NCBI GenBank assembly: GCA_011620585.1
Contig: WOYV01000106.1
Span: 1 to 62,733, forward strand
DNA: 62,733 nt
Source of the DNA: Draconibacterium sp.
GTDB lineage: Bacteria; Bacteroidota; Bacteroidia; Bacteroidales; Prolixibacteraceae
Direction of reading: 5' to 3'
The notes beneath the pieces were generated by a model. That model saw only the letters and a program-made list of their open reading frames with translations. It was not told the DNA's origin and did not search any database. Positions 35,343 to 39,244 of the stretch are shown piece after piece. The position numbers were made by a program, and so were the translations under genes. Position 1 is the stretch's first letter, and every line of letters starts with the position of its first letter.

Positions 35343-35359
35343 TTAAACACTCAATAATT

Positions 35360-35374
35360 CGTCGCTTTGCGACG
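35360..35374 (-). other. Short perfect hairpin in the groEL leader
   Basis: CGTCGC/GCGACG with a 3-nt loop, about 40 bp before the groEL ATG and after the groES relic. It may be an RNA stability or regulatory element, or simply a remnant; no T-run follows, so it is not a terminator. Confidence 0.45.
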
Positions 35375-35401
35375 TCAAAAAAATAATTGGTACATTAATG
35401 T

Positions 35402-35601
35402 TTAACTCCGTACCCGAGTTCTTCCTTTGAATACATGACCTCCGACCTTTATTCCCGTTGGCTCGTCTTTATTATCCGTACCAACATTAACTTAGTCCGG
35501 TTTAGAGTCGGGAATCATATTTCAGGAGGAAGCTTTTTCTTCGGTTCCTGTGTTTTTACCAGGATTTTGCCTGCCAGGATTTTACTTTTGAATTCTGTCA
35601 T
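35402..35601 (-). pseudogene. groES: Decayed groES (10-kDa chaperonin)
   Basis: Directly upstream of groEL on the same strand, the two consecutive frames read as pieces of GroES. From the ATG at 35601: KILAGKILVKTQEPKKK, matching the usual start (K-LA-K/R-VLVKP-EAEEKT). After a stop and a frame change, IPDSKPD matches the IIIPDSAKEKP loop-end motif. After an in-frame TAA, VNVGTDNKDEPTGIKVGGHVFKGR matches V-VG-GKKDEP-xIKVGD-V-YGK. The C-terminal ~25 residues are missing. At least one frameshift, one stop, a lost Gly-Gly-Ile mobile-loop end and a 3' truncation make a working protein very unlikely. Full-length GroES is about 90-95 residues; this is 200 nt. Confidence 0.75.
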
Positions 35602-35734
35602 TAATGTAATTTAATGATTAAACATGTTTTTATTTCGACACGGTGTTTGTATCATATTTTATGCCAAGTGGTAATTTTTGTATATCCGTCTGAAAACAAG
35701 GACAAAATAGCACACGCAACATTTTGCAAATAGG

Positions 35735-35851
35735 ATGAATGGGTGTAATCCTTCTCACAGTCAGATGATTAAGCCGAGTGACAAGTTCTCTGACAGGCTG
35801 GCAGAAGAAATGATATATCGGGTACTTTCCTGCAAAGAAAAGAATCGTTGA
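35735..35851 (+). CDS. Candidate 38-residue small protein, unknown
   Basis: A rightward frame from ATG 35735 to TGA, starting MNGCNPSHSQ and containing SDRLAEEMIYRVLSCKEKN, a plausible amphipathic helix. It lies in the gene-poor kilobase upstream of the groES relic, and two plus-strand terminators follow (35903 and 35996). No promoter of the usual form is clear and I recognise no family, so it may be a relic of a larger gene, a small RNA, or chance. Confidence 0.2.
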   Translation: MNGCNPSHSQMIKPSDKFSDRLAEEMIYRVLSCKEKNR

Positions 35852-36338: not shown

Positions 36339-36707
36339 TTAGTTTTCTCCGCCGTCGCTTTCCGGAGTAGCCGGAGTTTCGTTGGTTGCTGGTGGTGGCG
36401 TAGTTGGGAAAGTTGGTACCTGGGTCGGGTCAACCGTTGTTTCAATCTGTTGTTGGACGCGTGACTGATCAACGCCTTCCTGCTGACGTGGAATAAATCC
36501 AGCGCCTATAACCGATAAAAACAACAATGCTCCAGCCAGTGCCCAGGTTCCCTTTTCAAGAAAATCGTTGGTTTTACGAACGCCCATGACCTGACCAGTT
36601 GACTGGAAGTTGCTAGCTAAACCTCCCCCTTTTGAATTCTGTACCAATACAATCAGTACTAAAAGGATACAAATAATGAATAGTAAAACGGTTATTAAAG
36701 TATACAT
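36339..36707 (-). CDS. secG: Preprotein translocase subunit SecG
   Basis: A 122-residue inner-membrane subunit of SecYEG. Two membrane helices (about 2-22 and 54-74) flank the conserved loop QNSKGGGLASNFQSTGQVMG and KTNDFLEKGTW. The C-terminal tail is longer than in E. coli and is rich in Pro, Thr and Gln, as usual in Bacteroidota. Last gene of a leftward operon with the sigma-54 activator, lptE and the TPR-like gene. Confidence 0.95.
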   Translation of the reverse strand: MYTLITVLLFIICILLVLIVLVQNSKGGGLASNFQSTGQVMGVRKTNDFLEKGTWALAGALLFLSVIGAGFIPRQQEGVDQSRVQQQIETTVDPTQVPTFPTTPPPATNETPATPESDGGEN

Positions 36708-37832: not shown

Positions 37833-39065
37833 TTATCCTTTAATATCATATTCTTTAATTTTCCGGTACAGGGTTCTTTCGGAAATTCCCAATTCCTGTG
37901 CGGCATATTTTCTTTTTCCACGGTGTTTCCCGAGGGCTTTCTGAATGAGTTCGATTTCCTTATCGGCCAGTGAGAGCGATTCTTCAACGAATTCTTCGGT
38001 GTCCTGGATATGCTCCTTTTCAACGTGCGAAATATGAATTGGATTATGAACCGTTTCGCTGGCGGCAAACGGTGCATTATCGGCATTGTACAGATTTTTA
38101 ATAATCCGGGCCTGATCGCCTGAGATGGGTGCATCGCGGTTTTCCATCAGGTCGAGCACCAGTTTTTTCAGATCAGTCATATCTTTTTTCATGTCGAACA
38201 GTACCTTGTAGAGAATTTCGCGTTCGTTCGAAAACGACTGGTTTTCCTGGGCGCGGTTAAAAAGGGCCGGTAAATTCTGGTTTCCTTCAACTGGCAGGTA
38301 GTGCCGGAGTACTTCGCCGGTAATCTCTCGCTCCTGTTCTATGATTGAGATCTGCTCTGTAATATTTTTTAACTGGCGGATATTACCCGGCCATCGGTAA
38401 TTTACCAGTGCCGAACGTGCATCGTCGCTTAATCGTACCGGGGGCATCCGGTATTTCTCGGCAAAATCGCGGGCAAATTTGCGAAACAACAAAATGGTGT
38501 CTTCCGCCCGTTCCCGCAAAGGCAAAATTGTGATTGGTACCGTGTTTAAACGGTAATACAAATCCTCGCGGAATTTACCTTCATCAATGGCTTTCAGGAG
38601 ATTTACATTGGTGGCAGCAATGACGCGCACATTGGTTTTAATCATTTTCGAAGAACCGACCTTAATAAATTCGCCGGTTTCCAGAACCCGCAATAACCGG
38701 ACCTGCGTTGAAAGGGGAAGTTCGCCGATTTCATCTAAAAAGATAGTACCTCCATCAGCTTCCTGAAAATAACCTTTACGATCGGCCAGGGCGCCGGTGA
38801 AAGATCCTTTTTCGTGACCAAATAATTCCGAATCGATAGTTCCTTCGGGAATGGCGCCACAGTTAACAGCAATATATTTACCGTGTTTGCGGCTCGAAAA
38901 CTGATGAATGATTTGCGGAAATATTTCTTTACCTACGCCACTTTCTCCGGTAATTAAAACCGAAAGATCGGTGGGAGCTACCTGGATGGCAACCTCAATC
39001 GCGCGGTTCAAACCGGGTGAGTTGCCTATAATCTCAAATCGTTGTTTTGTTGCTTGTAAATCCAT
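37833..39065 (-). CDS. Sigma-54-dependent activator without receiver domain
   Basis: A 410-residue enhancer-binding protein. It starts almost directly with the AAA+ domain: GESGVGKE (Walker A, 40-47), GSFTGA (87-92, the sigma-54-contacting GAFTGA loop) and the DEIGELPLSTQVRLLRVLE Walker B/sensor region; a Fis-type helix-turn-helix ends the protein (KYAAQELGISERTLYRKIK). No receiver, GAF or PAS domain is present, so activity must be set by level or by a partner. I choose the ATG at 39065; the longer frame begins upstream of the probable promoter. First gene of the operon with lptE and secG. Confidence 0.92.
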   Translation of the reverse strand: MDLQATKQRFEIIGNSPGLNRAIEVAIQVAPTDLSVLITGESGVGKEIFPQIIHQFSSRKHGKYIAVNCGAIPEGTIDSELFGHEKGSFTGALADRKGYFQEADGGTIFLDEIGELPLSTQVRLLRVLETGEFIKVGSSKMIKTNVRVIAATNVNLLKAIDEGKFREDLYYRLNTVPITILPLRERAEDTILLFRKFARDFAEKYRMPPVRLSDDARSALVNYRWPGNIRQLKNITEQISIIEQEREITGEVLRHYLPVEGNQNLPALFNRAQENQSFSNEREILYKVLFDMKKDMTDLKKLVLDLMENRDAPISGDQARIIKNLYNADNAPFAASETVHNPIHISHVEKEHIQDTEEFVEESLSLADKEIELIQKALGKHRGKRKYAAQELGISERTLYRKIKEYDIKG

Positions 39066-39163
39066 ATTTGCCTTGTCTGTTTTCTTTTTCTTCGAAAAAT
39101 CAGGTGCATGATGTGGCGGTTTGTTCCAATTCCCGAAATTAACCACCATTTTTATTAAAAACG

Positions 39164-39171
39164 CAAATTTA
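39164..39171 (-). promoter_or_regulatory. -7 promoter element of the sigma-54 activator operon
   Basis: TAAATTTG on the minus strand, an exact TAnnTTTG, about 99 bp before the ATG at 39065. It excludes the longer frame start at 39188. No clear -33 TTG. Divergent from the kdsB promoter. Confidence 0.5.
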
Positions 39172-39244
39172 CAATTTTTCGGCGGCATTGTAAGTCGCTC
39201 TCCTACAATTAAGATTTTTTAGGCTTTTCACTGTTGGCACAGCG

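Follow-up and report, generated by a model that had tools for sequence, protein, structure and literature searches.

How does a bacterium with a single groEL gene manage when the groES gene beside it is broken? According to excerpts of PMC5406781, groES counts as essential, and in bacteria that have just one groEL it always lies upstream of that gene; the same excerpts count 834 groEL genes without a neighbouring groES in 770 of 4,861 genomes and link them to groEL duplication. The genome studied here, in which a search of the assembly returned one GroEL match, is an exception to the rule that these excerpts give for single-groEL bacteria. Its groE locus lies in a stretch of 62,733 nt (the window), which is one contig (C33) of an assembly of 3.94 Mb. 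Below, type A denotes the groES linked to groEL, and types B and C two further Cpn10 genes of the same genome.

A groES pseudogene adjoins the sole detected groEL

Along the minus strand of the window, secG comes first, then the groE promoter region, and after it a groES that is broken and a groEL that is intact (Table 1). A search profile made from 28 intact groES proteins of the same genus matched the remnant in three pieces, which are collinear, lie immediately upstream of groEL and differ in frame; the runner-up segment of the window reached 6.1 bits, and the top of 10 shuffled control windows 7.5 bits. Three-frame translation likewise recovered GroES pieces in order, in different frames and with stops between them. 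A Pfam scan of two of the remnant pieces, both short, returned no match.

Table 1. Features of the groE region, numbered along the window.
Feature	Position	Strand	Details
groEL, intact, 545 aa	33684..35321	(-)	TIGR02348 848.7 bits, cut-off 582.1
groES (type A) pseudogene	35343..35601	(-)	start codon at 35601; small deletions and in-frame stops; seen in profile pieces, alignment and three-frame translation
Remnant profile piece 1	35518..35610	(-)	22.1 bits, profile 1-23
Remnant profile piece 2	35405..35491	(-)	19.1 bits, profile 44-67
Remnant profile piece 3	35346..35468	(-)	12.5 bits, profile 66-89
Sigma-54-like groE promoter motif	35650..35667	(-)	conserved in genus; retained beside dead groES
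TGTCA-type repeat, candidate activator site	35779..35795	(-)	upstream of promoter
secG	36339..36707	(-)	
Sigma-54 activator gene	37833..39188	(-)	PF00158 Sigma54_activat 1.4e-68, and HTH_8

The DNA of relatives is alignable across the remnant as far as the promoter. Measured against four of them, the aligned part (35381-35601) carries three one-base deletions, one 18-base deletion and in-frame stops. At codon positions 1 and 2 the remnant mismatches the groES of the related genome G019 at 30 of 148 sites, compared with 47 of 1088 for groEL in the same pair and 10 of 184 for the intact groES genes of G019 and G010. In order and position the remnant shows homology to groES, it has disabling lesions and its constraint is relaxed; this part of the window is a groES pseudogene adjoining the only groEL detected in the genome. 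Judging from the broken frame, it would give no functional product.

The profile pieces, the DNA alignment, the lesions and the 545-aa groEL together bear out the original prediction of a decayed groES beside an intact groEL. It had also described a frameshift, an in-frame stop and loss of the C-terminus between 35402 and 35601; the first two are present, the DNA of the C-terminus is still alignable but out of frame, and the stretch given was too short, since the remnant covers about 35343-35601.

The groE promoter is retained

Sigma-54 promoters have elements at −24 and −12. In the motif upstream of groEL the TTGGCA element fits, and the −12 part is TGATA in this genome and TGCTA in the relative G004; rpoN is present in the genome. 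Across the genus the exact motif was found upstream of groEL in 26 of 35 groE loci, and the strict pattern went unmatched in the other nine, one of which (G022) is clipped by a contig end. In many relatives, though not in all, repeats similar to the TGTCA-type repeat lie 120-140 bp upstream of the motif. The gene for a sigma-54 activator, which is found four genes before groEL and points the same way, is a candidate regulator of groE; in this lineage, promoter, repeat and activator gene may together form the regulator-promoter pair of groE. Excerpts of PMC12316311 describe the groES of Bacteroides thetaiotaomicron as sigma-54-dependent.

A second, unlinked GroES-like gene is intact

A Cpn10 search of the genome gave two matches, types B and C, and no intact type A; within the assembly, no type A match was found outside the remnant. 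Type B is an intact gene for 95 aa on another contig (C37), unlinked to groEL and downstream of thioredoxin and glutaredoxin-like genes. In the four genomes compared, types A and B are 38-45% identical. The mobile loop of GroES carries a hydrophobic tripeptide, and the type B of this genome has the loop SGIIIPDSAKEK, which is the type A loop of its relatives; the segment after the loop differs between the types. GIIIP in the mobile loop is invariant in all 18 type B sequences of the genus.

Pfam Cpn10 (PF00166) spans the whole type B protein (6e-23, 81.1 bits, cut-off 21.1). The protein falls below every NCBIfam GroES cut-off (72.4 bits at best, against 109), whereas type A passes NF001531 (103.1 bits, cut-off 96), and type B is therefore filed as a Cpn10 family member and not under the curated GroES subfamilies. 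An AlphaFold monomer of the type B of a relative (L094; pLDDT 76.9, pTM 0.63) has as its best PDB match the GroES chain 8wuw_a (E 5.2e-7, TMq 0.66), and a type-B profile run against solved structures retrieved Cpn10-family chains (15 sequences at E <=1e-5). By this model, type B has the Cpn10 fold. Redox control through GroES cysteines was considered and rejected, as none occurs in the 26 type B and 28 type A proteins compared; any redox link would thus run through partners or regulation.

Type B sits behind redox genes and, in other families, near groEL

Of the 80 type B loci from named records, 76 have a gene for a Trx-Grx protein on the same strand and no more than 1.5 kb upstream, and 31 of those 76 have a thioredoxin gene as well; two of the remaining four (L101, L168) are near a contig start. 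The 18 type B loci of the genus show a glutaredoxin-thioredoxin-type B cluster wherever the contig reaches, with common neighbours on the glutaredoxin side and different ones on the other. Elsewhere type B stands in the groE cluster itself: the gene order is type A-groEL-glutaredoxin-type B in G151, groEL-glutaredoxin-type B in G379 and G245 (the latter cut at a contig end), and broken type A-groEL-type B in G184, with type B directly behind groEL. The Trx-Grx neighbours, together with this placement in other families, tie type B to both GroEL and redox proteins.

The groE promoter motif had no match at any of the 18 type B loci of the genus, so that co-regulation of type B with GroEL is not evident and the idea that type B had gained this motif was rejected. 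That type A decayed because type B had only recently arrived is likewise unsupported, given the conserved cluster and the wide distribution of type B in Bacteroidales. As a side observation, the FGGY-family carbohydrate kinase gene beside type B (L004 4758-5905, contig C37) is decayed: its N-terminal piece matches PF00370, and the rest has stops and frameshifts.

Type A was lost repeatedly within the genus

Comparison of the same locus in close relatives, where the DNA is alignable, further substantiates the prediction. Our genus sample comprised 37 genomes, including that of the window (G000), and 29 of them have a type A without internal stops at the groE locus. Type A is absent in six: in the present genome; in G016, whose remnant is decayed more deeply; and in G014, G020, G021 and G024, where it is cleanly deleted and the promoter stands 66-107 bp from groEL. 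The search for the groE region gave no match in the other two (G013, G023). One genus thus holds a graded series, from intact groES through a fresh remnant and a deeper one to clean deletions, and the remnant described here is the least decayed type A loss in it.

Type B was found in 18 of the 37 genomes, namely 13 of the 29 with type A and five of the six without. In the sixth, G021, type B is unreadable, because the contig ends inside hutH, the gene that borders type B in its sister G014, and a close thioredoxin match was not found. The thioredoxin locus could be located in 15 of the 16 genomes that have type A and lack type B (the exception is G025); at those 15 loci type B matches were at chance level only, and three of these fell within an adjoining peptidase-like gene.

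In a groEL tree the present genome falls in a clade with G010, G019, G017 and G004. The type A state changes three times on this tree, and the type B state four times with G021 left out. A single loss of type A was rejected (p-AU 0.00066), and uniting G016 with the four clean deleters was borderline (p-AU 0.034); the tree therefore points to at least two losses in the genus, and probably three.

In the wider order, type A losses fall in genomes with type B

We then extended the comparison to the family Prolixibacteraceae (Marinilabiliales at NCBI). Judged on score and on profile boundaries, a type-A-like match is present in 91 of its 95 genomes, the exceptions being G000, G016, G020 and G021. 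A larger sample of 392 genomes, an "order" in the search collection's own grouping, was scored for type A with profile A2 and for type B with profile A1. A type A or type B match was obtained in 385 of these genomes, and type B at E <=1.4e-30 in 100. Searching the 26 genomes with weak or no scores for groEL gave 16 matches, of which 14 nearly full-length loci were examined. Type A is absent from the 1.5 kb upstream of groEL in five genomes of family f94 (G197, G281, G348, G447, G489), a family in which G401 keeps it, and in G379 (f48) and G269 (f81).

Related genomes being counted singly and kinship ignored, type A has been lost in 9 of 95 usable type B genomes (the present one and G016 included) and in 0 of 284 without type B (Fisher 2.9e-6); for the latter, and for most of the former, presence of type A was judged from a profile score in a search that reads through stops. 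No stops occurred among the type A matches listed, which were the best-scoring ones. In G184 (f81), the type A that precedes an intact groEL (L175 1182-1454) is interrupted by an in-frame stop, and its loop is altered; this is a second recent type A decay, and with it the counts, made in the same way, become 10 of 95 against 0 of 284 (Fisher 6.8e-7). For five losses treated as independent events, the probability that every one occurs in a type B genome is about 0.001.

Six genomes were set aside before the count: G396, G254, G319 and G329, which have type B but gave no groEL match at E 1e-40; G245, whose groEL is close to the end of a contig; and G257, in which groEL was not matched. In G114, G152, G303, G334, G338, G360 and G382 no type A or B match was found, and groEL was unmatched or cut by a contig end. 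Weak type A scores were counted as presence in G113, G151, G219, G322, G430 and G474, the locus being inspected for G151 only. Separately, a partial type-B-like match with an internal stop occurs in G180 (C105:8783-8977), a genome with type A, and is possibly the reverse situation, a decaying type B.

These comparisons qualify the description of the locus as a rare snapshot: the remnant is the freshest loss in its genus, but loss recurs in both genus and order, and that in G184 is recent too.

Type B as the probable lid of this GroEL

Taken together, we think it very probable that type A is dead, that groEL is still on its old promoter and that type B supplies the lid in trans. In this Maribellus-like bacterium, groEL would be transcribed from the old groE promoter with the dead groES as a message leader, and the GroES lid would come from type B, the old paralogue behind the glutaredoxin-like and thioredoxin genes. 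Type B would form a ring, presumably now caps this GroEL, and would carry the essential function; redundancy between types A and B may have permitted the decay of type A. Lid and barrel would then no longer be co-transcribed, for which a cost is predicted. Observed are the decay of type A, the single groEL, the intact type B, the kept promoter motif and the repeated loss of type A in lineages bearing type B.

The original prediction had offered three ways out: a functional groES moved elsewhere, a second groESL operon, or another co-chaperonin. A second operon is rejected, with one GroEL match in an assembly that is 99.73% complete. Relocation is not quite right, as the likely replacement is an older paralogue and not a moved groES, to judge from its 38-45% identity to the linked type and its coexistence with type A in 13 genomes of the genus. 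Another co-chaperonin comes closest of the three, an unlinked type B of that divergence being present.

Among the competing explanations, the best placed is that type C, not type B, is the working lid, although we regard it as improbable. Type C is an intact, divergent Cpn10 of 127 aa on contig C7 (C7:192-512; gene L005 156-539), it passes Pfam Cpn10 with 57.7 bits, and it occurs in most genomes of the genus. However, it is common whether or not type A has been lost, whereas type A losses track the presence of type B; it is also longer and divergent in sequence, its loop reads SGLYLPP, and its Pfam score is the lowest of the three types. With type B as the preferred lid, some contribution could still come from type C, which the genome has as well.

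It is very unlikely that GroEL functions in this lineage with no GroES at all. Excerpts of PMC5406781 do propose stand-alone GroELs acting without GroES, but the proposal concerns extra GroEL copies, and here there is only one. A GroES paralogue with a canonical loop has been kept, and the GroELs of losers and keepers show no consistent difference: in an alignment of the six type A losers with 29 keepers no column fully separates the groups, which is what one would predict if GroEL still binds a loop of the same kind. Compensating GroEL changes were rejected on the same alignment. An intact type A in an unassembled part of the genome has just as little chance of being the answer; an assembly in 132 contigs has gaps, but completeness is 99.73%, type A has no match beyond the remnant, and one groE locus per genome is typical among the relatives. 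That the groES is in fact healthy and its lesions are errors of sequencing or assembly is scarcely credible even for a draft assembly, as the remnant shows coding-position drift and an 18-base deletion besides frameshifts, relatives lost the same groES in other ways, and the rest of the window is intact and densely coding (60 open reading frames of at least 90 aa, 91% coding, no other gap above 500 bp), which makes poor sequence unlikely.

Relation to known systems

The relatives share the layout of the canonical groESL operon (PF00166), with promoter, groES and groEL, and the remnant is homologous to its groES; here that gene is dead, which leaves groEL by itself downstream of the old promoter. 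According to excerpts of PMC5406781, groEL2 of Myxococcus xanthus likewise lacks an adjoining groES and depends on GroES encoded elsewhere, but it is a duplicate in a genome with a complete groESL operon, unlike the single groEL here. Stigonematalean cyanobacteria, in excerpts of PMC5381637, similarly have chaperonin paralogues with differential loss among lineages; there the duplicates consist of groESL operons and additional groEL genes, in contrast to the lone groES in a glutaredoxin cluster here. A search of the open-licence literature found no report of a Bacteroidales groES pseudogene or of a glutaredoxin-linked GroES. What is new is the probable recurrent substitution by a GroES paralogue of a redox operon, not a new machine.

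A broader reading, which we offer tentatively and with some doubt, is that an old GroES class in the glutaredoxin/thioredoxin cluster of many Bacteroidales serves GroEL under redox stress and was repeatedly left as the sole GroES of ordinary size once the groE-linked copy had died. The lid would thereby be uncoupled from the sigma-54-like promoter, and capping would come under redox-operon control. The graded series of type A losses in one genus, with a second GroES wherever the locus is readable, makes it possible to ask by experiment for what reason both co-chaperonins are retained, whether co-transcription of lid and barrel is needed, and what a GroES does whose gene lies with those for glutaredoxin and thioredoxin. 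Surveys that seek groES only next to groEL would misread such genomes.

At 3.94 Mb, the genome is smaller than those of its nearest relatives in the groEL tree (G010, 5.6 Mb; G017, 5.8 Mb; G019, 5.0 Mb; G004, 6.1 Mb), a difference that would fit ongoing gene loss.
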